Origin: Eunapius fragilis
Lineage: Eukaryota; Porifera; Demospongiae; Spongillida; Spongillidae
Direction: 5' to 3'
NCBI GenBank assembly: GCA_963681505.1
Contig: OY811986.1
Location: forward strand, 4,586,423-4,650,422
Length of the DNA stretch: 64,000 nucleotides
Shown here: piece by piece, positions 8,515 to 59,099 of the stretch
Layout of the letters: each line of letters starts with the position of its first letter
Numbering within the stretch: position 1 is the stretch's first letter
Made by a program: the position numbers and the translations under genes
Notes under the pieces: generated by a model
What the model saw: the letters and a program-made list of their open reading frames with translations, nothing else
Told to the model about the DNA's origin: nothing
Database searches by the model: none

Positions 8515-9575
8515 CAATTCATCTTTGCCAGACAGAGCACGTCTCTTCCTCCCATGCTGGAGCCTGGCTTTCTGTTATCCCTGCTCCAGGGCTTAACTTA
8601 CAACTTGACCCTTTGAATTTCAAACAGCCATACAGTGGTGGCTAGGCATGAGTATCTCACAGCGTGCTAGCTGTCCCTACTGCCCAGCTCATTCTTTGGA
8701 CTCCCCAGATCATCATGCTTTGACTTGCAAGCACGGAGGTGATGTGGTCACCCGCCATAACAGGCTTTGGGGTGTTCTTGTGGAGTCATGCTGAAGAGCC
8801 TGCGCTGGTGTTCAGGTAGAGGCGGGGAGTGGTTATGGTCTTCATGAGCAGGTAGAGGTGGGGAGTGGTTATGGTCTTCATGAGCAGGTAGAGGTGGGGT
8901 GTGGTTATGGTCTTCATGAGCAGGTAGAGGCGGGGAGTGGTTATGGTCTTCATGAGCAGGTAGAGGTGGGGAGTGGTTATGGTCTTCATGAGCAGGTAGA
9001 GGTGGGGAGTGGTTATGGTCTTCATGAGCAGGTAGAGGTGGAGAGTGGTTATGGTCTTCATGAGCAGGTAGAGGTGGGGAGTGGTTATGGTCTTCATGAG
9101 CAGGTAGAGGTGGGGAGTGGTTATGGTCTTCATGAGCAGGTAGAGGTGGGGAGTGGTTATGGTTTTCATGAGCAGGTAGAGGTGGGGAGTGGTTATGGTT
9201 TTCATGAGCACAGTAAATGACCAGCCGAAGTTCTTGCTGCAAATTGGATGATGGGCAAGCCGGCTGCATTCGACTTCACTGTCAAGGAAGTGTGACAGTG
9301 AGGTCTGCAGCCTTTGCCGCCGGGGAACGGAAGCATAGGTCCAATGATGCCAAATGTGCTGAACTGGGATGGGTGTCCATCCCACTTGCAGTGGAGATGT
9401 ATGGTTGCTGGGGTACAGAAGCTAAGTGGGCATTATCTCAGCTTGCTTCCCAATTGGGTACCAGACAGAACTGCCCAAAGTCCATAGTCATCACAGCTCT
9501 ATATGGGAGGCTAAACCTGACCCTTGTTAGAGCCAACGTCAGGGCAATTCTTAGTAGAGCATTCCAAGATCATTA
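8515..9575 (+). pseudogene. Non-LTR retrotransposon C-terminal fragment, copy 1 (with minisatellite)
   Basis: Three frames together encode the C-terminal part of a retrotransposon protein that recurs four more times in this window. Before the repeat array: DRARLF, FEFQTAIQWWLGM, then CPYCPAHSLDSPDHHALTC and GGDVVTRHNRL. This is a C-x2-C-x8-H-x4-C zinc knuckle followed by RHN, as found before the restriction-like endonuclease of RLE-type non-LTR elements. After the array: NWMMGKPAAFDFTV, then KHRSNDAKCAELGWVSIPL, YGCWGTEA and YGRLNLTL. Frameshifts and stops show it is dead. Known family layout: reverse transcriptase, zinc knuckle, endonuclease; only the last two parts remain. Reading R-P-A-D...A-F-D as the nuclease core is an inference. 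Confidence 0.75.
8814..9209 (+). repeat. Minisatellite, 11 copies of a 36 bp unit
   Basis: Eleven near-identical units of exactly 36 bp (396 bp in all) with a few single-base variants. In the frame of the surrounding retrotransposon each unit encodes 12 residues, VEVGSGYGLHEQ, so the array keeps that frame. The long open frames on both strands here are a by-product of the 36 bp period. Confidence 0.97.
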
Positions 9576-14400: not shown

Positions 14401-17400
14401 TAGCTTTGGTTATTATGTCTGACAAGGATAAAACTCTCCTCTGTAAAATCGTGTCTGGAGTTTTTAAAGATCACGTACTAGCTTGCCTTACAGTCTAGAT
14501 TTTAATATGGATATGACATGTGAGGATGAACCTTAGTACCGTATATACCACGTTTATGTACAAATAGATGGTAATATTTTAATTGATGGTGGCGGTACCT
14601 AATTTCCAGGTCTGGGAAGGGGTATCTGCTTTCTCTTCGATGGCTACAGGCATGGTCAGAGGTCAAGGATTGAATTGTGTATTGACTGTTAGACATAAGA
14701 ATGAGCAAACTGATGGTGGTAGGTGCTAGTAGACATGTCCGGAAAAATAGAGTACAGTTTTAAGCAACGAGCTCGACCCGCTGTCTTTGGCTACATAGCG
14801 TGCGTCAACTATAAGACCTGACAATGTAGAAACGAGTATTTTCATCCAAACGATCATTTTATCATACGCAATGCAAATATCGTTGTTTGAAAAACCCACT
14901 AGCAACAACTTTTTGTTTGAGGCCGTTCGCACTTTTTGCTGATTTTGGTATCATGGACCCCGTGTTAAAAATTATGACATGAACAAAAACAATAGTCATT
15001 GCACGGAGTGGGTCGTCAATGTATTTCTTTGTATGATATTGTTCTAAAATCCATTCAGATAGCATACTTTTCTGGAAGTGCAGACCTTAGTGGCAGAAGC
15101 AGGTACAAGAGATTCTTTAGGAACATACCCTCCAATTCACTGGACCCTCCAGCGTTTCTCAGTCTTATGAAGCATTTTGGTTGGAAGAGAATCTTCTCTA
15201 TTACACAGAATGAAGCCCTCTTCACTAATGAAAGTTACCTTTCACAGCGAGACAATCAGCTAATTGTGTTACCAAAAACGCACTGATGGAGGCTCACGTG
15301 CACTTTAATGTCCTAATTTTGATGACTGTATCAGTTTGAATTAGGCTTATGCCACTTTGCTAAACTATTTATAAGGGGGGCTATGAAGGAAGTATATTGT
15401 GGCTAATATGAGGCCGTATAAAAATAAATAAATTCTTCTCAACCAATAGGCTAACACTAATCTGCAGGTTGCATTGCAACAATCAAACTACACTCTTGGA
15501 AGTGCAATATTCAAGACATCATCAGATCCTGTAACATTGCTTGACAGCATCTTTGTGAGTATGAAAACCCAAGAAATGATCGATGCTTCATTGAATTGAT
15601 ATATTTATAGCTTAACACTGATGATTACAGGATCTTTTACTTCAACTGCTATTCTAGGCCAGCAAGAAGAATCATCTGTGCGGTACTGTGAAAAACATAT
15701 GCATGTGAGTATGTGTGGTACTGTGTTTATATACCATCCACAGGTCAGCAAGCGAGGCTATACATACCCCAACTATGCCTGGATATTCCCTGATTGGTAC
15801 ATTGATAACTGGTGGACAGCAGCTGTTGATGGAGGCAACGTCAGCTGCACAGACCAAGAGCTGGAAACATTCCTGGAGAAAACACTTGCCCTACAGAGAT
15901 ACCTATCACCAGAATCCAATACAATACTCACAGATGCTGGAATAGTAAGAAAGTACTATTACTTAGCAACTACATACACTGTATGAAGTAGGACCTGGGT
16001 CATCAAGAAACAAACAAAAAAAAAAAACGATGCTATGATGCCTTTGCTGGTACATAACATTGTTTCATGACAAAGCCCAACAATAACTACTCTGTTTGAT
16101 GGCTTGTAAACATGATCCCTTAAAGTTATAAACACATGAGTATAAAGTTTAATCTTATGATCAACCAGATGAAGCAGTAACCTAATCTTTTCATGTTAAT
16201 GTGATGCATTGGAAATAGACTGGTGCTTCATGTGTTCAAATGCATATTCAATGTAAACTGATGTTTCACCAATTTTTGCAAAATGAAGGCATATATATTT
16301 GAACATTCTATTTATCCTTTCACTAGAGTAAACTGCAGTAAAATAGTTTCAAGACTGGCTATACAATCAAACAGAAAAAATGGCGTACTAATATAGATAT
16401 TTTTTGTTGCAATTGTGATCGCAACCTTTTCATGAATAATTTTGAATTGCTTCTCAGACACCACAACAATTTCAAGATGAGTATCAATACCTAGCTCAGC
16501 ACAATGGGCATGACATAACTGATGCAGGAGCAAGGCTCTATGATGCTGTGTGGATATTAGCTATTGCCTTGAAGCGTACTATGGCCATGGTGAAGAGTGG
16601 TGACATCAATGGAACAGGATGTGAGAACACCTCTGGTTCACTGGTACCGCTAGAGCAGTTCCAGTACTCAAATGAAAAGATGGGATGTCTGATCCAATAC
16701 AACATTCAAGTAACTAACTTTTCAGGAGTGTCTGTAAGTTTATAATATCTAAGATACTCTGCATTGTATATATATATTGATGGCACCTTTCACAGGGACA
16801 TATCCTGTTTGATTCAAATGGAACATGCATTCAGCACACACTGAGACTGAAGCAATACAAACATGATCGTATGCATGTGATTTGCATAAAATCCCTCAAT
16901 CACAGTTAATATCACTTCAGGTTATGGTAACCTAAAGAAAACAAAATTTGCATACTTTAACACTCAGGACAGCTACGAATTTAAGTTTGAATACGGATTT
17001 TCCGACATGATAGTGTATCCAAGTTAGCAACCATTGCAGTTGTAATGGATTAACAGTTGATATACTTTTAATTTGGCAGATGGAATACCACCAGATGGTT
17101 CACCAGTGGAAGTTACTCTGTCATCAGCCGTTCCATTAGTTGTAATCATATACATCTTAGCAGCATGTGGCTTTATATTTGCAGCTGTGTGTCTTGCATT
17201 CAACATTTTCTTCAGGAAAAGGAAGTAAATGCATGCCATTCTATGCAGAAATATTCACCCTATTGCCTATTCAATTCAAAATACAGAGTGGTACAAATAT
17301 CGAGTCCCAACTTGAATTACATCATCATTCTAGGAGCAGTCTCTATGTACAGTTCTATTTATATTTATATTCTCCCAATCACAAATACCAGTGAAATAGG

Positions 17401-18561
17401 AGGCACATGTGTGGTATGGATGATGAAAATGATGAAACCGATGTCACAATTTCTCTACACACAGCTGAGGGAATGGCTATTTGTGGTAGGTTATGCATTG
17501 TGTTTTGGATCGGTACTTGCAAAGATGTGGAGGATATACTACATTTTCCAAAATCCAACTGCTAAGAAAAATGTGAGTACAAGTTATTTACCAAAGAAAC
17601 ATTTCAACAAGAAATTTCTTTCTGTTGTAGGTAGTCAAGGATTCGTACTTGATAATGGCTGCACTGAGTGTAACATGCATTGGTGTTATACTTCTCATAT
17701 TTGGAAGCGCTGTTCCCCAGCTGAGAGGGCATGTGGTGCAGAAAAAGAACATGGAAAAACCCAGTGGAATTGCCGTATGTCTGATACTGCATTGGATAAG
17801 TAGATGACCAGACCTCTCTGTCTTCAGAAAGGAAGAATATTTCATCTGGATATGCTATGCTTCATCTACTCCTTCCTTCTATTGGAAGATATTAATTTAT
17901 ACTTACCTCGGCATACTCCAAATTATTGGCATCACGTTGGCATTTCAGACAAGGAAGGTCAAATTCCCAGGATTGAATGACTCAATCCATGTTGCTGCAA
18001 TAATTTACACTTCAAGTCTTGTACTAGTGATCCTGATTCTGGATGTTTTTGTCCTGAACATATATCTCAATACATTTGGAGCCATCTTCACACTTGGAAT
18101 AATGATTTTGACAACAGTGTTTTTAGCTCTGACATTTGTACCAAAGGTACCATTCAGCCGTGCATACAGAAAGGCTATGGAAGTAGTATAGCATGAATTA
18201 TGTGATTTCATGACAATAGTTACGTGCTAACAGTTTCAACAGTACTTTTCTTTTAGATGTGTCTCCTGCACAAAGACCCTGGTGTGTCCATTAATTGCAC
18301 TCCAAGTATTAAAAAGGCTGGGGCCCAAGAGCTCAATCATGGATCAAAGGGTACATCATTTGAAGGCACACGACCAGACACAAATCATCAGACTATCATC
18401 ATAGAGTTAAAGGTGGCAAATTCTATGTCAAAGGTGAACCATCTCTGCTACTGCTAAATACTACTGTAACCATGCAACATCCTTTACAGGAAATGCTTGA
18501 TAAAGTTCCGCAAGTCTCAAATAGCTCAACTGTACCTACAATGAAGGAGTCAAATGTGTGA
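11408..18561 (+). CDS. GABA-B-like class C GPCR, gene A
   Basis: Coding exons from splice signals and paralogue comparison: 11408-11626, 13774-13911, 15059-15229, 15450-15554, 15611-15682, 15744-15944, 16458-16733, 16796-16868, 16921-17022, 17080-17224, 17287-17572, 17631-17774, 17832-18146, 18257-18433, 18490-18561 (831 aa). Exon 1 gives a signal peptide (LYTLLLLPVFVLAS) and the start of a Venus-flytrap domain (SFMFITSFGEYGLNSSGVIP); exons 2-8 complete it. Exons 10-13 hold seven hydrophobic helices and the family signatures AFQTRKV.FPGLNDS and TFVPK, matching the TM5-TM7 region of GABA-B receptors. A polar tail follows. Such receptors sit in the plasma membrane and couple to G proteins; the ligand is unknown. 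Oddities: the site after exon 3 reads GAAAGT instead of GTAAGT, and exon 13 (17832) needs an acceptor 4 bases downstream of the usual one to keep frame. It may therefore be a young pseudogene. Confidence 0.8.
11810..12300 (+). pseudogene. KRBA2/Ginger-type integrase fragment, copy 2 (in intron 1 of gene A)
   Basis: Contains FSVKEGHLYYTFKKAGEQL and, after a stop, RVAQACHVDVTTGHCGIIKT followed by IKESFI. The H...H....C..C-like order with ACH..TTGH.G..KT is the H2C2 zinc-binding domain placed before the integrase core in KRBA2-like and Ginger integrases. Stops at 12088 and elsewhere break it. It aligns with 5120-5540. The integrase core is not visible here. It lies inside the 2.1 kb first intron of gene A. 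Confidence 0.6.
12318..12345. repeat. Perfect 11-bp-arm palindrome
   Basis: CCAGAGATAAT, a 6-base loop, then ATTATCTCTGG: a hairpin with perfect arms in intron 1 of gene A. No terminator or regulatory role is claimed. Confidence 0.8.
12430..12545. repeat. Small foldback repeat (GTGGGACAAAA ends)
   Basis: Begins GTGGGACAAAAAGTTTC and ends with the inverted form CTTTTAGTCCCAC. In between, the word AGTTTCAGA recurs four times with GGACAA or its complement. This looks like a MITE-like or foldback repeat of about 116 bp within intron 1 of gene A. Confidence 0.55.
12550..13012 (-). pseudogene. Reverse-transcriptase-type retroelement fragment
   Basis: Two minus-strand frames read as one broken protein: LELEQLASIAKHT, then LASRWVYVARTIPNI in one frame; LLQPLEHLLRTKFIPSLTG, CAAPSDLERE and NPSQIATSQYSAS in the other. 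From memory this pattern (SRW.Y.ART.PNI..LLQPLE, P.LTG...DLER) occurs near the C-terminal end of reverse-transcriptase proteins in invertebrate retroelements. A frameshift near 12690-12760 kills it. The clade is not assigned. Confidence 0.5.
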
Positions 18562-21042: not shown

Positions 21043-24000
21043 TCAAGAACTAGATTCTTTGAGCTGATCGTGAGTTGGGAGGATTGATCACACTTCAAGC
21101 TACAAGACGTAAGCTTCTCCTACATAAATAAACAAACAAATAAATAACTACGCTTGTGTAGTGCAGTCTGTTTACCTTGAGCATTGAATTTTCTGATCTT
21201 AACTCCATTATGATCAGCTTTATGTTTGCATCTGACTGAGCAATTTCTAGTGGTTTTTTAAAAGCATCCATCTATGCCTCTGCCTCCCTGCGTACCATTC
21301 TTCTTACCAGGTTCAGAGATAAAAGATGCACCCCGGGATCTTTGAATAGGAGATACATCTGAAAGGAAGATATTACAAGGGTTAACACTGTAAAATAAGT
21401 CATGTATTTAGTTGACATGGCTGAACAGACAGATAGCATTAAGCTTAGACCTTTGGTACAAAGGTCAGGACTAGGAATGCAGTTGTCAGAATCATTATTC
21501 CAAGTGTGAAGATGGCTCCAGATGTATTGAGATAAGTCTCCAGAACAAAATAACTCTCACTCAAGATCACAAGTACGAGACTTGAAGTGTAAAGCATTAT
21601 AGCAACATAGACTGAGTCATTCAATCCTGGGAATTTGACCCTCCTTGTCTGAAATCCCAACAAGATGCCAATAATTTGGAGTATGCCAAGGTAAGTATAA
21701 ATTAATATCCTCCAATAGAAGGAAGGAGTATGTGAAGCATAGCATATCCAGTTGAAATATTCTTTCTTGATACCGAGGTTCTGAAGATGGAGAGGTCTGG
21801 TTATAGACTTATCCAATAGAGTGTCAGACATACAGCAATTCCACTGGGATTTTCCAGGTTCTTTTCCTTCACCACATGCCCTTTCAGCTGAGGAACAGCA
21901 CTTCCAAATATGAGGCGTATAAAACTAATGCCCGTTACGCACAGTGCAACTATTATCATAAATGAATCCTTGAATACCTACAACAGAAAAAATACTTGTT
22001 GAAATGTTTCTTTGGTAAATAACTAGTAAGCCCACAATTTTCTTAGCAGTTGGATGATGGAAAATGTAGTATATCCTCCACATCTTTAGAAGTACTGATC
22101 CAAAACACAAAGCATGACCTACAACAAATAGCCACACCCTCAGCTGTGTGTAGAGAAAATGTGATATCGGTTCATTATTTTCATCATCCATACCACAAAT
22201 GTGCCTCCAATCCCACTGATGTCTGTGATTGGAAGAATGTAAATATAAATGGAACTGTACATAGAGACTGCTCCTAGAATGATGATGTAATTCAAGTTGG
22301 GACTGGAGCGTTTTACCACTCTGTACATTGGGAGAAATCTGCATCATGGAGGCATTCCCCCAAATCCTACCTCTGTTTCCTGAAATATATATTGAAGACA
22401 AGACACACAGCTGCAAATACAATGCCACATGCTGCTAAGATGTATACGATTAAAACTAATGGAATGGCTGATGACAGAGTAACTTCCACTGGTGAACCAT
22501 CATGGTATTCCATCTGCCAATGAATTAAATAAACTCAATGCATGCCCAGTAACATTGCGATTGGCTGCTAACTTGGATATATTATTAGATCAGAGAAACC
22601 AGACTCGTACCTAAATGTGTAGTTTTCCAGATCATTGAAGATTGCAAATTGTGATTTTGTTAGATTTCCATAAACATTATAAGTTGAAGCAATATCAGAT
22701 AGATTAGATGAATATCCCGTAATCTCACGCCTGCATTGCTTCATTCTCAATATGTGCTGAATGCATGTTCCATTCGTATCAAATTGGATATTCCCCTTCA
22801 AAAGAACCGTCCAAACATCAATCACACACTAAGTTGACATGTTACAAACTTACTGAGACTCCTGAAAAATTAGTGTTTTGAATGTTGTATTGTATCCGAC
22901 ATCCCATCTTTTCATTTGAATACTGGAACTGATCTAGTGGTACCAGTGAATCAGAGGTGTTCTCACATCCTGTTCCATTGATGTTACCACTCTTCACCAT
23001 GGCCATAGTATGGTTCAGAGCAATGGCTAATATCCACACAGGATCATACATCCTTCCTCCACCATCAGCTGGATAATATCTGCCTTGAAGCGCCAACTGT
23101 TTGTACTCATTTTGAAACTGTTGAGGAGTCTGGAAATAAAATTACAACTTAGTAATGCATGTGCATGCATGTGTGTCTGTGTGCGAATGTGTGTGTGCAT
23201 GTATTCAGTATGATATGCTCATTACTGTATATACTAACACCTAATAAGAGTTGTTGTGTTAACCCATCAAAATTCTCCATGTAGAACAATACGTCATAAT
23301 TACAATGTGAAGATGATGTTATGGAGACCATCATTTGAAATTATGATGTTTGGTGTGTTTACAAATAAGGTAACATTTTGGTGATCATATTGCACCAGAA
23401 AGATAAACGAATGGTTCATGGTTGACTACTTGAATACCACTTGCTTAAGAAATGCTGCAACTTTCACGTAATTTCCCATGCAAACGTACTAATATTGATT
23501 AAAAACTATGACATGTGCATATGAATAGTTTGTATGAAAGTGTTCAGCATGTGGCTGTGCCTGTGAAAGCTATATATTTTAAAATGAGGGACTTCTAACC
23601 ATTGTAGCACAGGCACTTGAACAGAACAAGCTTAATTCATATGTATTAGGTTTTTCAAAGCCTCTAGATACACACATACACTGTGCAGCTGATGTTGCCT
23701 CCATCAGCAGCTGCTGTACACCAGTTATCAACATACACATCAAGGAATATCCAGGCATAGTTGGGGTAGCTATAGCCTCGCTTGCTGGCCTGTGGATATG
23801 TTCCCATACCCATAACAGCACACAGCTATGTATACTTGTCTATTCTTATAAGGAAGACTTGCTTTGCAGTTTACCTCACATATAATCTTTCTTGCTGATC
23901 CAGAGTAGCAGTTGAGGTAAAAGATTCGGTAGTCATCATAGGTAAGCTGAGAATTAAGTGCTTATGTATAAGCAGGATTTTCGCACATTATGGAACTTAC

Positions 24001-25186: not shown

Positions 25187-25240
25187 CTAAGCCGTGAGAT
25201 GGTACAAAAATGTAATCAATTTTTTCCATTCCAAAAATTC
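25162..25240. repeat. 79 bp host duplication, left copy
   Basis: Identical to 28067-28145. The sequence is the exon 2/intron 1 border of pseudogene D (starts CATCCAGAGATCTG, ends CCAAAAATTC). The two copies bracket the Ty3/Gypsy composite, so it behaves as an unusually long target duplication. Confidence 0.95.
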
Positions 25241-26629
25241 AGTGGAAACTGCACAGAGAAGACTTAGCAAGGAGTGCGGGCATGGTTCGTCGGTGGCATC
25301 CAGCGGTGTTGAGGAGTTAGCAGCGGGTAGCGGACTCGCAGCATTGTCGGTCCAACAGCTCCAGAAACAGGCCCAAGATTCTGAAAGAATGGTGGAGGAC
25401 CTTAGAAAACAAGTCGAAGAGCTGAACAGACGGCTATCTGGCAAAGGAAAAACTACCGCTGCTGACCAACAACGTCAGTCCTCTACCAGAAAGCAAGGGT
25501 CTGCAGTGATTACATGTTGGAACTGCGGGGAGCGAGGTCATGTTCGGCGTAACTGCCCTCGCAAGCGGAAGGACCATAAGGATTCTTGGCAGGCGGCAGC
25601 CGTAAGTTCCACGTTAATGGTGGAAGGTAGTATAGAAGGGCGAGTCACTAGAATGCTTGTAGACACGGGTTCGGCGGTGACGTTAGTGAGGGAGGATGTT
25701 ATTAGAATGGTACCATCGGGAAAGTCACTTACAACGCAGGTACCTGCGAATTCGGTAGTAGCAGCAAATGGGGAGAAGTTGGACATTATTGGGCAGTGTA
25801 AATTGAGCATAAAGGTCGGGGTATCAGCCAAAGATCATCCAGTTTTGATAGCAAAGAATTTAAACCAGGAGTGCCTTCTTGGGGCGGATTTTTTGATTAA
25901 GCATGGTTGTATCGTTGACCTTCAACAACAAATTTTGCTCACAAAAGAAGGTCCTGTGCAATTCTTGTCACCTATGCGAAGTGGTGTTCAAAGTTCCCCA
26001 GTTTGTTTTGTGACGTTGTCTGAAACCATAAATGTCCCTCCTTATTGTCAAATGTGCCTTCCTGCAAAGGTGTCACGGCATGCAGGTCATTGCACCAGCA
26101 GCTCTGGTGCCCTCCTGGTGGAACCAGTGGGACGGTTTATGGATCAGCATGGCCTCTTGGTTGCTTACTCCATCATGGATGCTGCTGCTAGTCACACAAT
26201 GGTCCAAGTTCTTAACCCTGGCTTCGCACCGATTACAGTGCACAAGGATGAGATAATGGGTATGTTAAAACCTATTGATGATAGTGCTGATTGTGCATCA
26301 GTACAATACCCTGCCTGTAAGCAATCCACCCAGTCTGTTAAGCATTGTATAGAGCAGATGACAGACGGCCTGGCTCCTGAGGTTCGAGAGAAAGTGACTG
26401 CCTTGCACTGGCAGTTCCAAGACGTCATCGCGTCGGATGACAGTGACCTTGGGCGTACCCGATTGACATCCCATAAAATCAACACAGGGGATACACAACC
26501 AGTCTGCCAGCGTGCACGGAGGCTACCCTTTCATCAGCAGCAAGAGGTACGTGGGTTACTAGATGACATGCTTTCTCGAGGTATCATTGAGCCTAGTTGT
26601 GGGCCATGGGCATCACCCATTGTCTTGGT
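25241..26629 (+). pseudogene. Ty3/Gypsy gag-NC, protease and RT N-terminus fragment
   Basis: An open frame of about 460 codons begins in the retroelement at SVETAQRRL and stays open into the LTR, with a chance stop at 26655. Visible parts in order: a coiled-coil-like stretch (LQKQAQDSERMVEDLRKQVE), the zinc knuckle CWNCGERGHVRRNC (CCHC), the aspartic protease motif MLVDTGSAVTLV with a later CLLGADFL, and the reverse transcriptase entry RRLPFHQQQEVRGLLDDML, GIIEP...WASPIVLVRK. It stops before the catalytic YVDD box, so it cannot act alone. The apparent ATG at 25194 lies in host DNA and is not a real start. Confidence 0.85.
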
Positions 26630-26764
26630 AAGGAAATGGTCACAACCAAAGTCATAAGAGCAGCAACAGATTCAACTGATTTTGCATGCACATACATCAA
26701 TATATATACACAGCCGATTGTCTAATTAACTAACTAATTATTACCAATTGGTCATGTCACTACA
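26630..26764 (-). repeat. Ty3/Gypsy 3' LTR, truncated
   Basis: Same sequence as the LTR at 27919-28066 but lacking about 11 bases at its outer (U5) end, where it joins the inverted pol fragment. On the minus strand it is preceded by the purine run AAGAGGGGGAGTAG (about 26765-26778), a good polypurine tract. Confidence 0.9.
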
Positions 26765-29175: not shown

Positions 29176-32100
29176 ATTAAGAAGTATGATTTATCCTGTT
29201 TTTGTAAATAAGTTATGTGTATGGTTGTATATATTACATACGCATAATTTAAATTTCAATAGAAAGTACAATGAACTATGGTCAAGTTAAAGTTGAAGTG
29301 TTCCTGTCTGCGCGTACCACGTTCCAATAAATCATCCATTGCGTGCGATTTTGTACTCCTTCAGTTGTGTAATTGGTCAGCACAGTAGCATGTTAATGAC
29401 AACACAGACAAGGAATACAGACTGACTACGAATACAAAAATAGGGCTTATCTATCACCTGATTCTAATATTGCAGGTGCACCAAGTGTCACATACAGTAC
29501 GCAAGCGCGCACCCGCTTCAGTTGCTTGCAATCAGAAATCATCATTCGACCGTTCCAATTATAGAGAGCAACCGTGCCGCGTGACTTCACCCACCGATAA
29601 TTTGCATTCCCTACCGATATCGATTATCTAAATACCTCTCAAAATATGTCTCTTTGTGAATTTTAATTAACATACGATAACTCAGGATTGAAATTAAAAC
29701 TTGATTTCATTAATATAAATTACTGTCATTAGGATAACACTATAAAATCGAATTAGATTAAAATTATTATAAGCGGTTAAGTAATTGTGTCAACTTATTC
29801 AAAGCCTCACGGGGGTTACGTTACATTGAAACGGCACAGTTGTTTGCGGCCATTCAAATCGTGGACATTAGCCTCGTTCCCCGAAATATTGAAATGATCA
29901 CGTAATGACCTAGCAACGAGCCTTGACAACCACCGACCTTTGAAACATGAGACTGCTTGTTAACACGACACGTCCTATTGCCATTTACAAGCCATACAAG
30001 GACTGTACCACTATTGTTCTATTTATTGCCCAAATCACATGGCGCTGTGATGTTTCCAAGATGTGGTATAGGCCTAGCTCGCGAAAAGCGACAAACTTTT
30101 GACGGATATCTCCACTTTGAAGCGCTTATTCTCCCTGAAGGACAAATTCTACGGCCAAACTAAAAGTGGAAAACCAAAGAAGATAGAAGGTACTTACAGC
30201 GTATCGTATGGAACTATTGTCACATTTTTTCTTGGCGGTCGTAGATACGTTTAAAGTTGAGTGTGCGTATAGCGTATATACACACGTACACTTGTGGTGT
30301 TCAATTAAAGGTTTTACTCGTGAGGTGGCTTCGCTCATTCTGTGCTGCATTGAGCATCATGATACAAGACATGGTAGGTCCTCTGCAAGATATTAAAACC
30401 TGGCGTGGTTGGACTCAGCCCCTTGCTCTTCGAGGAGGCCAAACCCTGCACGGGTACGCCTTGCCCATGTGGTGGTATGAAACGCATCTTCAGTGGTACT
30501 AGTATTGAGATGCCTGGGAATGATGCCCTAAGGTTGGCCATGGAATAGTGATGTTCCATGCTTTGTTGATAGACTTCAAATGGTGATATGTGTACATAGT
30601 GATGCATGTGTGTAGGGCGCATCTCTTGAGCTACAGTAACCATTAATGTATAAGTGTTGATACTTGATGGCTAGTATGCATCAAGTGTGGTCTATGCTTG
30701 AAGAGCCTTATGAGGTTCTGTAAAAATACACCACTAAAGTATTGTTGATGTTTGGCCTTAAATGTCTGACAAAGGGTGCATCATGATGGTTGAAACCCTT
30801 ATCAGTGGCTCTGGTGGTTTTGACTATTTCATTCTTCTGTATGTGTTTAGTAGACATATTGGAATCGTATCATTGCCTCCTGTAGCTTCCCCTTCTCAAC
30901 CTGTTTGATCACTGTTGACCTCTACATAACCCTATGCCGTCATAATCTACAAGTAAGAATGTACAGAAAGCTTAAAAAAGCTGGATGTGCTGGTTGTGGT
31001 CATGTGTACAAAGACCAGCTGCAGGTCACAGTTACAACAGAAAGAGCTCAAAGATCTTCATGAAGATTCCATGGGTCATGTGGAGCCCAGGTATCCATCC
31101 TACCAGTGTAAATACGCAATTGAGATACTGACCTGTGACTGCTTATGTGTATGGGAACATCAAAGTGTGGCTCTGATATGCAATACATCTCCAGAAGCCA
31201 TAAGGACCTATGGTTAGAATGGTTAGATGTGATGGTTTCCAGTGTTCTTTCTGGAAAGGCTCCTATGCAACTAGCATTTTGATCCTTCTCTATTTCTGGT
31301 CAGCGGTGGACATTAGGTGAGTGATGCGGTGGTACAACCCTTTATTTTATTATCTGTGATGAGACCTTTTGGATGTGCCTGTGAATGCGTGTCACCTCTC
31401 GTGGGCTGATATCTGGGTAGATTTTATATGCACATGTATGTACATGTAAGCTTTCATCATGTGGCTTCCATTGATATACATTTGTGGAGCTGTAATATGT
31501 TGTAGCTCTGTCCTGCTATTCAGAAGTACAGAAATTCGGCACACTTATATGATGGCCTCTTTCTCTTTCTTGTGGCCACCAAAAGGCTTCCACACACTCT
31601 GCAGCGTTGCTGGACCCTATAGTTGTGCGGATCGAGTCAACTACTATGACCGGATTGTATAACAAACTATGCCGATTATTCATAAAAAACACATTCGTGA
31701 TTTGTGTGTTGAAAGAAAAAATGTGACACGCTCTAAACCATGTGTTTGCCTATTGTGATGCTTCTTCTCGATGATGCTACGTCCTGACCTCCTTGGGAAT
31801 TTGCCTGGCGTCCGCCTCATAGGCTTGAACTTACCCCCCTCCCCTATGGCAATGGTGTAAAAGTAGGATGCGCGTTTAAAGGAAACGCAACAAAGCGCTT
31901 GCGCATATGGGATATACTTACCTACGATGAACGTCAAGATCAAAGAATCATGTTTAGCCCATATCTGACCTATATGAAGGATGGATATGGCTCGCTCAAA
32001 AAGTAGCATTGATAATGAGGTGTGGATTATAGCTCCAAAACCATTTACGGTATTGTTCTAATTGTAACCTAATGTCCAGCCGCAAACAACTGTGACGGTG

Positions 32101-32555
32101 GACAATAACCTACGCCCGCAATGAATTGGTAATTACCTAGCAACGACACCATTAAGTCCTTAGTTACCACATGCCTTTGTTTACGGCTTGGCACTTTGTT
32201 ACTGCTTCACGTGGCACTTATAACAATGATAAGGTTAGTATTAGCATTCCATGCTCTACCAAGAGATGTTAACAACTTGGTACAACAGTTTCTTAGCGCT
32301 CGGATTTGTTGCTGGAGACTCGCCTATACGATTGCGGTAGGGTTCAGAAAAGGTCTTGGACTGAACTATCCGCCAGAGGGAATGGCTAAAGCCTTTGTGT
32401 GCACTTCATAGACAAGGCGAGCTACAATATTTTTGTATTTTCTTAGGTGGCCATTGCTTTAGTGGCTTGATAAACCACTCGCGAAAGCCCTGTAAACTAC
32501 CGCCATGTTATACATTTAATTAAAGGTACGGTGTGCTCATGACGGACCAGTTTTT
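29176..32555. other. Intergenic DNA, no gene recognised
   Basis: Only short frames without family resemblance. An inverted repeat pair (about 29836-29876 and 32064-32092, core CACAGTTGTTTGCGGC and GGACATTAG) brackets 2.2 kb and could mark a decayed DNA transposon. A separate direct repeat ACCTAGCAACGA occurs at about 29908 and 32136. Confidence 0.4.
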
Positions 32556-33662
32556 TTTTTCCTTTTGGCTTGTGGAGGTCGAAGGGACCGTAATTGTGGT
32601 GACAAGTTCAGAAAATGCTCCTGCACGACTCTTTTGAGCCTTTTCACCTTGTTTGGAATCCATCCTCACCTTCAAACTTCACACTATCACCTGTCCTGGG
32701 TTCACCAACTTGGCTCTTTGCTAACTGGTCTGTACCCATACCAAGGAATGGAATCATCACTGGATACACTGTGAATGCAGCTGTCAGTCATCATCAGAGA
32801 ATTAAACTGTGCATGGATGGCTTCAGCACCAATTTTTGCCTGTAGCATGATCCTCAAGCAGGTGCATTTTCACTGTTCGATGTACTGTTAGAAAGGCTGC
32901 AGTGAAAGCTTCCATAAATTCCCTGATCGATAGGTCTATGTATAAAATGTAATAAATACACTTTAGATACATAAGGAATTGACCTAGGCGAGTGTTATCT
33001 TCTTTTTTTGACATGTGTACAGGTGATGGCACGTTGCAAACTTAGTACCAATGTGGTGAACTTCTCACACCATTGCATTCTCCATAAGGGCTGGGCATTG
33101 TTCAGCAGTTTTTTACACTGAAGAGCACAGAGTTGCTATGTTTGATGGCTGCAACAGTAAGAAATGGAGATTTTGATACAGGTTTGTATAAATTACTACC
33201 TGTAGTGCCCTGTTGACATGATTCCCAATGAATGCCCCATCTCGTTTGCATGTCATGCATTTCACCAGTACATCTTGCAGCAACCTTAGTATCATCTGTG
33301 ATGCTGGTTTGATAGTCTCTGGCATCAGTTGATGTGGTGGAGAACAGAAAGGGCAGAACGTCTGTGCAGAAGCTGTTAATTGCTGTACCAAACATCCTGT
33401 ACACACCAGAGTATCACATGACAGCTGTACTGGTTGATCAAGAGTCTTCTGGCATATGACACATAACAGCATTTCAGCAATAGAAAGGACTTGGTTGGCA
33501 GATACTACTGGATGTTAGTTGGAAAAGATAAGTTTTTGTAGGGCAATCTGCTCAATGTGTTAGATAAGGTTCTTGGTTTGTGCTATGTCCATGGATTGTT
33601 TTGCAGGATACCTGCTTATCTTTGTCCAGCGACATTGTCTGTATGATGTGCACTCCTGCATA

Positions 33663-33698
<36 letters not shown>

Positions 33699-34066
33699 TG
33701 TGTAAAGTGTTTGGCTGGTGATGGGGTTACAATGTTTACCTTGCAATTGTTGGCAGCATGCTTAGACCAGTCATAAACCTTTACCATGCATCTTGAAACC
33801 AAGTTAGCTTTTATTGCCTTAACAGCATGTTCCATCGATTGGTAATATGGCCTACAGAAAGTATTTGGGAGGCTCATTTGCAGGTCGTTGGTGATATCAA
33901 TGCCAAAGGCCCTTTGCAAATCGACTGCATGTGGAGCGCAGTCAAATACACGTTTAGCCTTCACTATTTCCTTTGCTTTCTTTATCTTGAAACCACAAAC
34001 TCTGCAATGACTGCTCAGATCGCATAACCGGTCACCTTGCATCCTTGATTTATGTGGGCACACCAT
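32556..34066 (-). pseudogene. Decayed transposon gene with RAG1 N-terminal-like and RING regions
   Basis: Minus-strand exon-like pieces. (1) 34066-33740: SSHCRVCGFKIKKAK, DCAPHAVDLQRAFGIDI, FCRPYYQSMEHAVKAIKA, YDWSKHAANNC, ending at an AAG/GTAAAC donor; the Cys/His spacing resembles the N-terminal region of RAG1 and of N-RAG-type transposon proteins. (2) About 33513-33200: LLCVICQKTLDQPVQLSCD, VCTGCLVQQL, FCPFC, then VKCMTCKRDGAFIGNH, a RING finger with a second zinc motif, ending at a CAG/GTAGTA donor. (3) 32980-32823: FTAAFLTVHRTVKMHLLEDH, then in another frame IGAEAIHAQFNSL. (4) About 32680-32560: IPNKVKRLKRVVQEHFLNL. Parts 3 and 4 match, from memory, the C-terminal end of the same proteins. 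The middle is missing and frames are broken, so it is a fossil. Confidence 0.6.
33670..33697. repeat. (TA)n microsatellite
   Basis: Simple TA run located in what would be the intron between the RAG1-like and RING exons; it makes a spurious YIYIYI frame. Confidence 0.85.
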
Positions 34067-35039
34067 TCAAGTGATTCGTGTGGTTTGATGGCATAAAAGA
34101 GAGGCCAAGAAAGCAATGGCCACAAATAAAAACATGCTTAAGAGACTGTACTAGGACCACTGAATGTATGCTAATAAAGACAGCTCGAACCCTCTGGCGG
34201 ATTGGAAGCAAAAGCCCTCTCCAAGTAAGTCACCAAAATGGCTGTCTTTACGGTACACCAATGCGCGGGACTTCTGATTTATCAAGAGGGTACTTTTTTA
34301 TGCGGATTTGAATTAGTTTATTATGGTACTACTTTGTGAATAGGTTCATATAATTCTTTTGGCATTTTGTCGTTGTGCGAAAGAACTATAAGCATGGAAA
34401 AACAGCCGTTTTTTTTCGACGAAAATATGAATGTACGATTGCGTATACCGCAATAGAACTATACGTTCTAATTATACAACTTAATGTCCGCGTCTGGACC
34501 ACCGTGGCCTCTATTGTAAAAATTATTCAAGATTACGGTTAGAGATAACTGATACGAAAAATTATTTATAAATAGCAAACGATATGACTATGCAGTGGAA
34601 CAACATTGATTCAAGTTACTTCCGGTTCGAACCATTCGAACCGAACATCGAACCGAACCGGTAAAACGCGGACGCACAAACGTGTACATGTATGTGTATT
34701 AGGTAGCGAATCATACAGTTATTGGTGATGGTTTATATACGCAATGAATATTTAATGAGCGGTTCGAAAGGTTCGAAATTCGTTCGAACCGAACATCGAA
34801 CCGAGTCAAACCTCGACACGATTCGAGCAGAACCGGATTTAATAGTGAGATATTAACATTTAAAATCATAATCTGTTTTAAAGTTATTAAGGTTTAAGCT
34901 GTTGTTTGATAACTAAGTGTAATAAGCATATCTAATTAGTCCATTATCAAATGAAGTAGGAAGCACAAATTTTAAAATTATGTAATTACGTAATAGTGAG
35001 TTTTTAAAACTCGAAGTTCATCAAAATTACAGTAGTCTG
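34067..35039. other. Intergenic DNA between the transposon fossil and the gene B 3' flank
   Basis: AT-rich, no open frame of note except the repeat cluster at 34621-34840. From about 35040 the sequence becomes the duplicated receptor 3' flank. Confidence 0.4.
34621..34840. repeat. GGTTCGAACC-motif cluster
   Basis: The words GGTTCGAA, TTCGAACC and CATCGAACCGA recur at 34623-34662 and 34760-34832, including a direct repeat of about 22 bases (TTCGAACCGAACATCGAACC plus two). The word overlaps the Pol III B-box consensus GGTTCGANNCC. No tRNA cloverleaf fits. Confidence 0.6.
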
Positions 35040-35584: not shown

Positions 35585-38500
35585 TCAAGAACTAGATTCT
35601 TTGAGCTGATCGTGAATTATTGTGCCATTTGGGGAGGATTGATCACTCTTCAAAATACAGGACATAAGCTTCTCCTGCAAAATAAATAAATAAATAAATA
35701 AATAAATAACCACACTTGTGCAGTGCAGTCTGTTTACCTTGAGCATAGAATTTTCTGATCTTAGCTCCATTATGATCAGCTTCATGTCTGCATCTGACTG
35801 AGCACTTTCCAGTGGGTTTTTTAAGCATTCATCTATGCCTCTGGCTCCTTGCATACCAATGTTTTGACCAGGTTCAGAGTTAAAACAGGCACCCTCGGGG
35901 TCTTTGAATAGGAGATACATCTGAAAGGAAGATATTACAAGGGTCTACACTGTAAATTAAGCAATTAAGTCATGTATTTAGTGGAAATGGCAGAACAGCT
36001 AGTTAGCATTAAGCTTATACCTTTGGTACAAAGGTCAGGGCTAGGAATGTAGTTGTCAGAATCATTATTCCAAGTGTGAAGATGGCTCCAGATGTATTGA
36101 GATAAGCCTCCAGAACAAAATCTCCCACAATCAAGATCACAAGTACAAGACTTGAAGTGTAAATTATTGAAGCAACATAGATTGAGTCATTTAATCCTGG
36201 GAGTTCGACCCTCCTTGTCTGAAATGCCAACGTGATGCCAATAATTTGGAGTATGCCAAGATAAGTGTAAATTAAGATCCTCCAATAGGAGGAAGGAGTA
36301 TGTGAAGCATAGCATGTCCAGATGAAATATTCTTCCTTGATACCGAGGTTCTGAAGATGGAGAGGTCTGGTTATAAACTTACCCAATACAGTATCAGACA
36401 TACGGCAATTCTACTGGGGTTTTCCAGGTTCATTTCCTGCACCACATGCCCTCTCAGTTGGGGAACAGCACTTCCAAATATGAGGAGTATAACACCAATG
36501 CATGTTACGCTCAGTGCAGCTATTATCAAGTACGAATCCTTGACTACCTACAACAGAAAAAAATTACTTGTTGAAATGTTGCTTTGGTAAATAACTAGTA
36601 AGCCCACAATTTTCTTAGCAGTTGGATGATGGAAAATGTAGTATATCCTCCACTTCTTTGCAAGTACTGATCCAAAACACAAAGCATAACCTACAACAAA
36701 TAGCCACTCCCTCAGCTGTATGTAGAGAAAATGTGACATCGGTTTCATTATTTTCATCATCCATACCACACATGTGCCTCCTATCCCACTGATATATGTG
36801 ATTGGAAGAATGTAAATATAAATGGAACTGTACATAGAGACTGCTCCTAGAATGATGATGTAATTCAAGCTGGGAGTGGAGCGTTTCACCACTCTGTGCA
36901 TTGGGAGAAATCTGCATCATGGAGGCATTCCCCCAAATCATATCTGTTCCTACCTCTGTTTCCTGAAATATATATTGAAGACAAGACACACAGCTGCAAA
37001 TACAATGCCACATGTTGCTAAGATGTATATGATTACAACTAATGGAACGGCTGATGACAGAGTAATTTCCACTGGTGAACCATCTGGTGGTATTCCATCT
37101 GCCCATGAATTAAATCAACATAATGCATGCCCAGTAACATTGTGATTGGCTGCTAACTTGGATATATTATTCGATCAGAGAAGCCAGATTCAAACCTAAA
37201 TGTGTAGTTTTCCAGAGCATTGAAGTTAGCAACTTGTGATATTATTAGATTTCCATAAACATTATAAGTTGAAGCAATATCAGATAGATTAGATGAAAAT
37301 CCCATATTCTCACGCCTGTATTGCTTCAGTCTCAGTATGTGCTGAATGCATGTTCCATTTGTATCAAATTGGATATTCCCCTTCAAAAGAACATGCAAAA
37401 AATCACTCACATGCTAACTTGACATGTTACAAACTTACTGAGACTCCTGAAAAATTAGTGTTTTGAATGTTGTATTGTATCAGACATCCCATCTTTTCAT
37501 TTGAATACTGGAACTGCTCCAGTGGTACCAGTGAACCAGAGGTGTTCTCACATCCTGTTCCATTGATGTTACCACTCTTCACCATGGCCATAGTATGGTT
37601 CAGAGCAATGGCTAATATCCACACAGCATCATACATCCTTCCTCCACCATCAGTTGGATTATATCTGCCTTGAAGAGCCATCTGTTTGTACTCATCTTGA
37701 AACCGTTGAGGAGTCTGGAAATAAAAATATAACTTAGTAATGCATGTGCATGCATGTATGACTGTGTGCGAATGTGTGTGCATATATTCAGTATGATATG
37801 CTCATTACTTTACATACTAACACCTAATAAGAGTTGTTGTGTTAACCCATCAAAATTCTCCATGTAGAACAATACGTCATAATTACAATGTGAAGATGAT
37901 GTTATGGAGACCATCATTTGAAATTATGATGTTGGGTGTGTTTACAAATGAGGTAACATTTTGGTGATCATATTGCACCAGAAAAATAAACGAATGGTTC
38001 ATAGTTGACTACATGAGTATCACTTGTTTAAGAAATGCTGCAACCTTCATGTAATTTCCCATGCAAGCGTACTAACATTGATTAAAAACTATGACATGTG
38101 CATAGAAATAGTTTGTATGAAAGTGTTCAGCATGTGGCTGTGCCTGTGAAAGCTATATATTTTAAAATGAAGGAATTCTAACCATTGTAGCACAGGCACA
38201 TGGAGAACAAACTTAATTTATATGCATTTGGTTTTTCAAAGCCTCTAGATACAGATTTGTTCCTGCTTGCATGGGTGATCATGAAACGTATAAAGGACTC
38301 TTTGTACTGGAGAATGCGTTAGTATTCTAACATGATGGGATTACACAAAATCATGTAAGAACTGTACCTCAAATGAAAACCGTTGAATCAACATACAAAA
38401 CACTTACAATTCCAGTATCAGTGAAAACAGTGTTGGATTCTGGTGATAGGTATTCCTGTAAGATGAAGTTTTTCTCCAGGAATATTTCCAGCTCTCGATC

Positions 38501-45735: not shown

Positions 45736-45816
45736 TGTCTTGCAAATGAATATAAAGAAACAAAACCCATTTATTGACGGATTTCAGTTTATTTTATTCA
45801 GTCTTTTAAATTTCAA

Positions 45817-46200
45817 ATGGAGCATAAAAGAACACCCTTTATTCAGATATTGAATATTAACAACAGTCATTGGATTACAATATCTATCATTGGTGTACCA
45901 CCATCTACTGTCAAAGTGCATGATAGCAACCATGGACAACTGCCTCATCATGAGCAAAAGTTAGAGGCAGATATTTTGCAGTCTTGTCAAGTTGAACCTG
46001 ATATTGTAATCCATTACATTGATGACCAAAAACAAGCTAATACATGTGATTGCGGCTTGTACTCAATAGTATTTGCAACTGCACTAACCTTTGGTCAAGA
46101 TCCTGCCATGATATATTTTGATCAGGAAAAAATGAGGCATCACGTTGTCAACTGCTTTGAAATTGGACACATGTCATTGTTCCCAACCCATGGTCACCGA
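45817..46200 (+). pseudogene. Ulp1/SENP-type (C48) protease domain of the Ginger-like element
   Basis: Open frame with the cysteine protease order His, Asp, Gln, Cys: LNINNSHWITISII, VKVHDSN, then DDQKQANTCDCGLYSIVFAT and FDQEKMRHHVVNCFE. These domains cleave SUMO-like or polyprotein targets in other proteins. The catalytic residues look intact although the upstream integrase is dead. It was probably part of one protein with the integrase and the PHD finger; a one-base shift separates it from the PHD frame. Confidence 0.7.
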
Positions 46201-46202
46201 AA

Positions 46203-46375
46203 CCCGCAGCAACACACCACAGAAACCTTCTATTTATTGTATTTGCCGTCTCATCGCTGAAGGCACCATGATACAATGTTTCTCCTGTAAAGAATGGTTT
46301 CATAAGTCCTGTCTGTCTGTTCCCTCGAAAGTCATTCATAACAAAAAACTTGTCTGGAACTGTCAGTCGTGTGCT
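46203..46375 (+). pseudogene. PHD finger of the Ginger-like element
   Basis: Reads IYCICRLIAEGTMIQCFSCK, EWFHKSCLSVPS and VWNCQSC: the C4HC3 pattern of a PHD finger is complete. PHD fingers usually bind histone H3 tails, which could guide element targeting; that role is an inference. It ends at a stop near 46394. Confidence 0.75.
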
Positions 46376-57604: not shown

Positions 57605-59099
57605 ATGTGAAGACCAGTTTTTAAATTTCTTTGACGTCACCAAGCCAGTCGTCATTCAGTATGACGCTAGCACATAGGGTTTGGGAGCAACTCTGATGCA
57701 GGGGGGAAGGCCTGTTTTTTCAGCATCCAGGTCACTAACAAAGTCTGAAAAAAAAAACAATGTGGCCATTGAACTGGAGTGCCTTGTCATAGTGTTTGCT
57801 TGTCGCAAGTTTGACCAGTTCATATATGGTGGTGGAAACTGATCACAAGCCTCTGGAGGTAATTGCTAAAAAGACCCATTTAGCAGCCCCAAGACGATTC
57901 CAAAGAATGTTGCAACTGCAGAGATATGATCTGGATATTATGTACAGTCCTGGCAACCAACAAGTGATTGCAGATGCGTTTTCAAGGTTTCCAGTAGGGT
58001 AACTGTCAGCTGAGGAACTAACCTCACAGGAAGTGTTTGGGGTACAGCTGGATGATATGATCACCCAGGAGATTAAGGTCATCAGGCCACCTGACTTCAT
58101 CAGTGTTCACAGTGAGAGGTGAGGAAGGCGGTGGAAGCAGATGCAGAACAATGTACCCTTCGGAGATATATTGGTGAAGGATGGCCACCGAATGTGCGAC
58201 AGGTTCCTACATTGGTCAGACCCTACTGGAATTTCAGAGAACTTCTGGTGATGCAAGATGGGATCATTTACAAAGGGGCCGGGATAAGATAGTGGTTCCC
58301 CTATCACTTAGGGCTGATTATATGGGGTTGCCTTCATGCCAGTCACATGGGCTGTGAATCCACACTTCGTAGGGCTCGAGAGGTGGTTTACTGGCCGAAC
58401 ATGGCAGAGGACATACAAAGAGTCACCCAGTCATCGATTGTCATCCAGGCACTGAAACAACAGTTCGCATTATATGGAGTTCCACTGGTTGTTCATTTGG
58501 ATGAGGGGCCGCAGCTTACAAGCGAGGAGTTCAGAGACTTCTCAAAGTCTTGGGGTTTTTCACATACCGTCTCATCATACCACAGCCAATCAAATGGGAA
58601 GGCAGAGTCAGTGATAAAAATTGCCAAGAGACTTTTCAAACGGAGTCCAGACCACTACATGGCTCTCCTGGAGTATCGCAACACCCCAACAGTAGGTTTG
58701 GGATCCAGCCCAGCTCAACATCTGCTGGCGAGGCGAACTAGGAGTGTGTTCCCTGTTAGGGATACCCAGTTACACTATGCTCCTCAGGATCAAATGTGGG
58801 TGAAAAAGGTTCACCGGCAACAAACTATTCGGTCGAACCTGTCAGCTAAGGGACGGGACCTGCCTCTGTTGAGAGTTGGACAACCGGTGTTATTGCAAGA
58901 TGTGCATGTGAAAAAGACAGAATGGAGAAGAGGACTGTGCCAAGGACAAATGTCAAATAGATCTTACGTGGTAGAAGTGGATGGCCAGCCTATGCATTGC
59001 AATATGCGCTTTCTAAAACCGAACAAAGTTGTTCCTAACCCACATGAAGGAACAGAGGGTGAGATAAAGACACCGGAGATGGAGGTTCAAAGACCTTGA
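57605..59099 (+). pseudogene. Ty3/Gypsy RNase H and integrase fragment
   Basis: Frames in order: FFDVTKPVVIQYDAS, stop, GLGATLMQGGRPVFSASRSL, AIELECLVIVFACRKFDQFI, then after a frameshift VETDHKPLEVI, FQRMLQLQRYDLDIMYSPG and VIADAFSRFPVG (RNase H). The integrase zinc domain follows (SHMGCESTLRRAREVVYWPN, about 58338-58403). The core is shortened: after VTQ it jumps to VHLDEGPQLTSEEFRDF and YHSQSNGKAESVIKI (Glu region), then YRNTPT and a long basic C-terminus to the stop at 59097-59099. About 120 residues with the first catalytic Asp appear deleted. No LTRs were found. Confidence 0.8.

Follow-up and report, generated by a model that had tools for sequence, protein, structure and literature searches.

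The 64,000-nucleotide stretch of Eunapius fragilis DNA analysed here (the window) very probably holds, at 32097-34506 on the minus strand, a dead, non-autonomous and internally deleted copy of a cut-and-paste DNA transposon of the Chapaev type. Judging from its translation, the element is predicted to have formerly encoded one spliced protein, composed of a RAG1-type zinc-binding (Chapa) domain, a RING finger and then a transposase C-terminus. As a transposon relic it is ordinary but informative. RAG1 is the enzyme behind antibody diversity, and a genome with many Chapa-RING Chapaevs offers material for studying its N-terminus outside vertebrates.

When the element was searched for at DNA level in the genome from which the window comes (219 Mb, 24 contigs; 40 matches scored of 151 candidates), it proved to be a 2.4 kb repeat, whose long matches besides the window itself are 88-97% identical. 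The linked copies that the first-pass annotation proposed to look for are thus present. We fetched 20 copies with their flanks (L009-L028) and compared them with the window to place the element ends, which were found by searching for the terminal motif; 19 copies could be followed to their ends, and L027, whose match breaks off at 34240, was not used for this. The right end reads CACCGTG in 18/19 copies and CCCCGTG in L020, which still keeps the GTG end. The left end reads CACGGGGG in 18/19 copies, so that CAC is kept on this side in all but L013 (TGCGGGGG). Accordingly, the CAC/GTG ends of Chapaev elements occur together in 18 of the 19 copies, while the terminal repeats of the two sides match each other along no more than ~8 bp. 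The window copy retains the right end alone, intact at 34500-34506 (minus strand, CACCGTG), and lacks ~25 bp of the left end. Against this extent, the span 32556..34066 given at first pass is too narrow; the peptide pieces quoted from it do lie there, on the minus strand.

A 4-bp direct repeat is flush with the ends in 16/19 flanked copies, the exceptions being L009, L013 and L019; the window copy, with its left end lost, falls outside this count. Flush repeats of other lengths were found in 2/19 (2 bp), 1/19 (3 bp), 0/19 (5 bp) and 0/19 (6 bp) copies, and in the controls mismatched left/right pairs agree in 0/342 and shifted pairs in 0/95 cases. The target site duplication (TSD) of Chapaev (CMC) elements is 3- to 4-bp long according to the excerpt of PMC4079192, a length with which the 4 bp of these 16 copies agree, and the same excerpt names the Chapaev motifs H(4)H, LH and C(2)C. 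KMHLLEDH (32847..32870, minus strand; from translation and the C-terminal search) is taken as H(4)H, and LH and C(2)C were not seen in the translation of the window copy. The fuller relative L050/L051, a copy broken by frame changes, contains a DKGG segment and, aside from it, CLLC, PGLHITQGIF and KMHILEDH, which we take as putative C(2)C, LH and H(4)H, respectively. Further along the minus strand, the window copy encodes GAEAIHAQFNSL, a transposase C-terminal block (32795..32830; translation, relatives), and IPNKVKRLKRVVQEHF, the transposase end (32612..32659; translation, L050/L051 pieces). The transposase-type C-terminus claimed by the first-pass annotation is supported; in Pfam, the two C-terminal window pieces have no match.

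Upstream of these blocks, exon 1 (33740..34066, minus strand, with a Met at 34066 or 34042) encodes the RAG1-type N-terminal zinc (Chapa) domain, including CRVCG, FCRPYYQSM and the W-H and first C of a W-H-C-C site, and ends in ...YDWSKHAANNCK followed by GTAAAC. A predicted 84-bp intron, GTAAAC...GCAG (33656..33739, minus strand), which contains an (AT)15 microsatellite (TRF), separates it from exon 2 (33238..33655, minus strand). Exon 2 starts after GCAG with ECTSYRQC, the end of Chapa, and continues through a linker into a C3HC4 RING finger (33338..33469, minus strand), recognised by four Pfam RING models and with RAG1 1rmd as best PDB match; it holds stop codons at 33562-33560 and 33517-33515. 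The predicted splicing completes a W-x2-H...C-x2-C site resembling that of RAG1. For the gene model we used 16 copies, the window plus 15 flanked ones, omitting L013, L022, L026, L027 and L028 (inserts or cut ends); in this sample the splice donor (GTAAAC / GT) is found in 16/16 copies and the acceptor AG likewise in 16/16 (GCAG 15, ACAG 1). In relative L051 an exon ends at the same place as the window intron, with ...YDWCSHTISTCK, and L029 encodes the same region in a single uninterrupted frame of 363 residues. Two introns within exon 2 were discarded as a model, relatives having one continuous exon there. Two of the apparent breaks of the gene in the window are due to the intron (33739-33656) and to an old internal deletion. 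Under the spliced model, none of the 16 copies examined is open from Chapa through RING, which justifies the earlier description of the gene as a fossil; of the intact copies with terminal repeats that were to be sought, repeated copies with CAC/GTG ends were found, and it is the open frame through Chapa and RING that none of the 16 has kept.

The label "Chapa" rests on the homology of the N-terminal zinc domain to RAG1. Window exon 1 alone, in a single-sequence phmmer search of the PDB, yields four matches (E 0.56-0.88), none of them RAG1, so its link to RAG1 needs a profile. The ORF 33560-34066 matches Pfam RAG1_imp_bd weakly (E=0.018, 15.1 bits vs a cut-off of 23.3). For the RING ORF (33113-33514), RAG1 1rmd is the first PDB match (E=6.2e-6) and the match extends past the RING, with TRIM5 next (3.9e-5) and other RING proteins close behind RAG1; the window RING matches the four Pfam RING models at E 1.8e-4 to 5.7e-4, each under its cut-off. 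In Pfam, the joined 276-residue window sequence finds nothing but RING families, and it is collinear with a full-length RAG1 chain (query 50-244 to residues 154-357), though only at E=0.0067.

We thus turned to a profile, A1, in which the window protein is aligned with four relatives found in its genome and C-x2-C, C, C, W, C-x2-C and the RING cysteines are invariant. All four relatives sit at hit-list places of a RAG1 Pfam model, a choice that favours RAG1-like members, and two rows are joined from pieces (L051 across a frame change, another from exons of L037 and L031). So composed, A1 aligns collinearly with residues 101-377 of the RAG1 chain 6oem, which we take to be the mouse protein, at E=1.5e-18, and matches the RAG1 N-terminal fragment 21wb at 6.8e-10 over the Chapa part only. 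In the RING part, LNX2, which is not RAG1, ranks at 2.2e-10 above the isolated RAG1 RING 1rmd at 1.2e-9. Because other RING proteins equal RAG1 for the RING alone, it is the whole collinear match and the Chapa part that speak for RAG1. With the database size fixed at 1000, the spliced exon-1 protein of the window matches the four relatives at E=1.1e-13 to 8.5e-10, and 0/1000 shuffled controls reach E 10; the quoted peptide pieces are no product of chance. Altogether, the comparison of the translated pieces with RAG1 models that had been suggested at first pass gave a weak result with RAG1_imp_bd and a strong one through A1, whose collinear alignment supports the order then proposed, a RAG1-type N-terminus followed by a RING.

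How the family lost its catalytic core can be traced at one related locus, C5:5666800-5669480, read from its two sides, where a RING (L052) and a C-terminus (L053) of the window family flank a core segment. L052 shares 92.8% DNA identity with window 33516-33238 over 279 columns and leads past the RING into a second zinc finger and then a catalytic segment with DKGG (C5:5667845-5667961; PF06918 33.3 bits vs a cut-off of 25), while L053 matches the window from ~33218 onward at 86.8% over 402 columns. At this locus, then, a 90%-identical window-type RING is followed by a Chapaev catalytic segment before the C-terminus. The two matches are 1,932 bp apart at the C5 locus vs 19 bp in the window, therefore ~1.9 kb has been lost. 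Since this core-bearing locus has the same RING and C-terminus, the window family is the product of an internal deletion at about 33238-33218 (junction 33218..33238, minus strand), whose RING side was placed against L052 and whose other side against L053. This deletion accounts for the missing PF06918-type core of the window copy. Aligned to the window, all 20 flanked copies cross the junction without a core; three of them have inserts, located elsewhere. The C5 locus itself has stop codons, and its L052-L053 stretch may be a nested insertion and not one element.

Matches to all parts of such elements were found in the same genome. With an E limit of 10, Pfam RAG1_imp_bd is matched 144 times (the best match at 1.0e-7, 38.3 bits), and not once in 14 control genomes of unstated kinds. 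PF06918 comprises Chapaev transposases and is placed in one clade with RAG1 in the excerpt of PMC3985635; it has at least 131 matches at E up to 0.001 (150 scored of 168 candidates), and 0/14 control genomes contain it. With 150 scored in each case, 375 candidates were obtained for the C-terminal piece, 491 for the window RING, 653 for the L051 RING and 263 for the catalytic segment of L029, which itself reaches 63 bits with PF06918. At 16 loci, Chapa, RING, catalytic and C-terminal matches are ordered along one strand, with Chapa and C-terminus separated by 2.8-3.5 kb at 15 loci and by 5.5 kb at the remaining one; these were picked by eye from the match lists, with their order checked from the coordinates, and represent a selection, not a count. 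The Chapa match is individually weak in many of them (E <0.01 in 6, >1 in 4).

Elsewhere, Chapa and C-terminal matches lie only ~1.3-1.5 kb apart at C2:17012776/17011453, C3:1262246/1263555, C10:8190737/8189446 and C2:14325487/14324025, with no RING or catalytic match between them among the matches listed (150 each). The Chapa match is strong only at the last of these (5.6e-5) and lies at 0.03-0.06 in the other three. The four loci may represent deletion derivatives that arose independently in other families of Chapaev. At C12:711738-711983, a Chapaev catalytic segment lies in an open frame given as 622 residues, a length possibly inflated by N runs; it could belong to a transposase that is still intact or represent a domesticated gene. 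Around one RING copy of the window family, a very long open frame was rejected as an artefact, the adjoining piece reading mostly N.

A RAG1-like N-terminus, as seen with A1, might also be expected of a Transib/RAG-like (RAGL) relic, a direct relative of the RAG1 recombinase, and the right end, CACGGTG when read inward, is similar to the RSS heptamer, CACAGTG. Yet the 5-bp TSD of Transib and RAG-like elements is found in 0/19 copies, and the core pieces of the fuller relatives match PF06918, while those of L050/L051 have no RAG1 match in the PDB at sequence level. Moreover, the RAG1/Transib-type core model PF12940 has a single sub-threshold match genome-wide, unlinked to the family, the nearest listed Chapa match on its contig being >400 kb off. 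We consider a Transib/RAGL identity very improbable and discard it on account of TSD length and core type. The PF12940 match itself (L049, C20:1601751-1601978) is a lone fragment like the C-terminal end of a RAG1/Transib recombinase, with 21.3 bits in one search and 23.9 bits (E 1.4e-5) in a second, both below the cut-off of 25, and it is the only PF12940 match listed in the genome.

The first-pass annotation had pointed to the N-RAG-type transposons proposed as the source of the RAG1 N-terminus. Indeed, the window family lacks a core, and its 20 flanked copies all align through the junction, as would be expected of a free-standing N-RAG transposon that encoded a RAG1 N-terminal-like protein only and never had a core. 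Two observations leave such an origin very little credit: transposase C-terminal blocks persist, and L052/L053 show a core segment lying between the two protein ends of this family. Thus, the RAG1-type N-terminus, the RING, the C-terminus and the linked copies of the earlier interpretation stand, but the element is an internally deleted Chapaev and not a free-standing N-RAG source; its fuller relatives in the genome carry the N-terminus and the catalytic core together.

Improbable, too, is that selection maintained the truncated Chapa-RING product, either to regulate the element's own transposition or as a gene of the host, until the copies decayed. The pN/pS among the 16 copies is 0.35 in exon 1, and the fusion of Chapa-RING to the C-terminus preserves the reading frame in the window copy and L025; against this, pN/pS is 0.93 in the RING, private changes, with small counts, give ratios of 0.50 (8 synonymous and 16 nonsynonymous changes) and 0.71 (8 and 18), and in L014 and L017 the frame does not run through the fusion. 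The low value in exon 1 may reflect divergence on full-length parents, and it gives a small chance that selection once acted on the Chapa part. Also counting against selection, beside the absence of an open copy, is the spread of one subfamily with a stop codon: the window and L009-L012, with a mean identity of 99.1% (gaps ignored), have the stop codon 33562-33560 in common (5/5), and it occurs in 0/11 other copies. As these near-identical copies share one stop codon, the subfamily multiplied after its gene was broken.

For the internally deleted Chapaev, we propose the following course of events. A parent element encoded one spliced protein with Chapa, RING, a second zinc finger, a DDE transposase core and an H(4)H C-terminus, and the ~1.9 kb deletion brought RING and C-terminus together, so that the core was lost while both ends stayed. 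The family, one subfamily of which spread after its gene was broken, was presumably mobilised in trans: full-length Chapaev relatives would have provided a transposase that recognised the CAC...GTG ends and cut and reinserted the element, with the host filling the 4-bp staggered gaps. While its frame was still open, the Chapa-RING product would, by analogy with RAG1, have served at most as a zinc-binding fragment, with a possible ubiquitin-ligase or regulatory role.

Chapaev DNA transposons were reportedly described by Kapitonov and Jurka in 2007, and the N-RAG-TP of Aplysia is said to have been introduced by Panchin and Moroz in 2008. The Chapa-RING architecture in Chapaev is already known, as it was published in 2015 by Kapitonov and Koonin (PMC4411706): in the excerpt of that account, Chapaev contains the Chapa domain, followed in two of its subgroups by RING, as in RAG1, and Chapa and RING were already fused to the core in the ancestral transposase. 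The window family shows this Chapa-then-RING order and resembles these Chapaevs in its CAC...GTG ends, 4-bp TSD, H(4)H and, in fuller relatives, a PF06918-type core; unlike them, it is internally deleted, with the core gone and two protein ends left. With vertebrate RAG1 it shares the collinear zinc-binding pattern of N-terminus and RING (residues 101-377), but it is a Chapaev without the RAG1/Transib catalytic core. The protein of the Aplysia N-RAG-TP resembles only the RAG1 N-terminal part in the passages available from PMC8355894, PMC2996935 and PMC13337447. The coding part of the window family resembles the same RAG1 region, whereas, compared with N-RAG-TP as known here by description, it keeps a transposase C-terminus and has a traceable Chapaev parent.

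A 2021 hypothesis paper (PMC8355894) and a 2026 review (PMC13337447), as far as their excerpts go, have the RAG1 N-terminal part come from a separate N-RAG-TP joined to Transib, and mollusc RAG1-like proteins carry N-terminal zinc motifs and RING together with the RAG core in the excerpt of PMC7204232. In the titles and abstract openings of the literature searched, we found no description of N-RAG elements as Chapaev deletion derivatives. What is new here is this family, its abundance in the genome and, as a traced case, one way in which an "N-RAG-only" element can come about: with a core-bearing relative and a core-less derivative in one family and the junction mapped, the route to such an element becomes concrete and testable. 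We tentatively suggest, while leaning slightly against it, that N-RAG transposons generally, including the Aplysia N-RAG-TP, are internal-deletion derivatives of Chapaev that kept the Chapa-RING front end. If so, a core-less transposon was never needed as the source of the RAG1 N-terminus.

Around the element, the window contains repeated exons of class C G-protein-coupled receptors at 17072-17803 (+), 21445-22434 (-), 36015-37109 (-) and 60054-60635 (-); 7tm_3 matches cover 17072-17803, 36015-36410 and 60054-60635, the remaining stretches being alike by eye only. This suggests a receptor gene cluster with transposons in between. Retrotransposon pieces are found at 25191-26657 (+), with an aspartyl protease and a zinc knuckle, and at 58293-59099 (+), with an integrase and an H2C2 zinc-binding domain. 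A Ulp1-type C48 peptidase fragment, of a kind often carried by transposons, lies at 45778-46260 (+; E=1.1e-4), and a minisatellite at 8813-9210 consists of 11 copies of a 36-bp unit with 97% matches and has long open frames on both strands.
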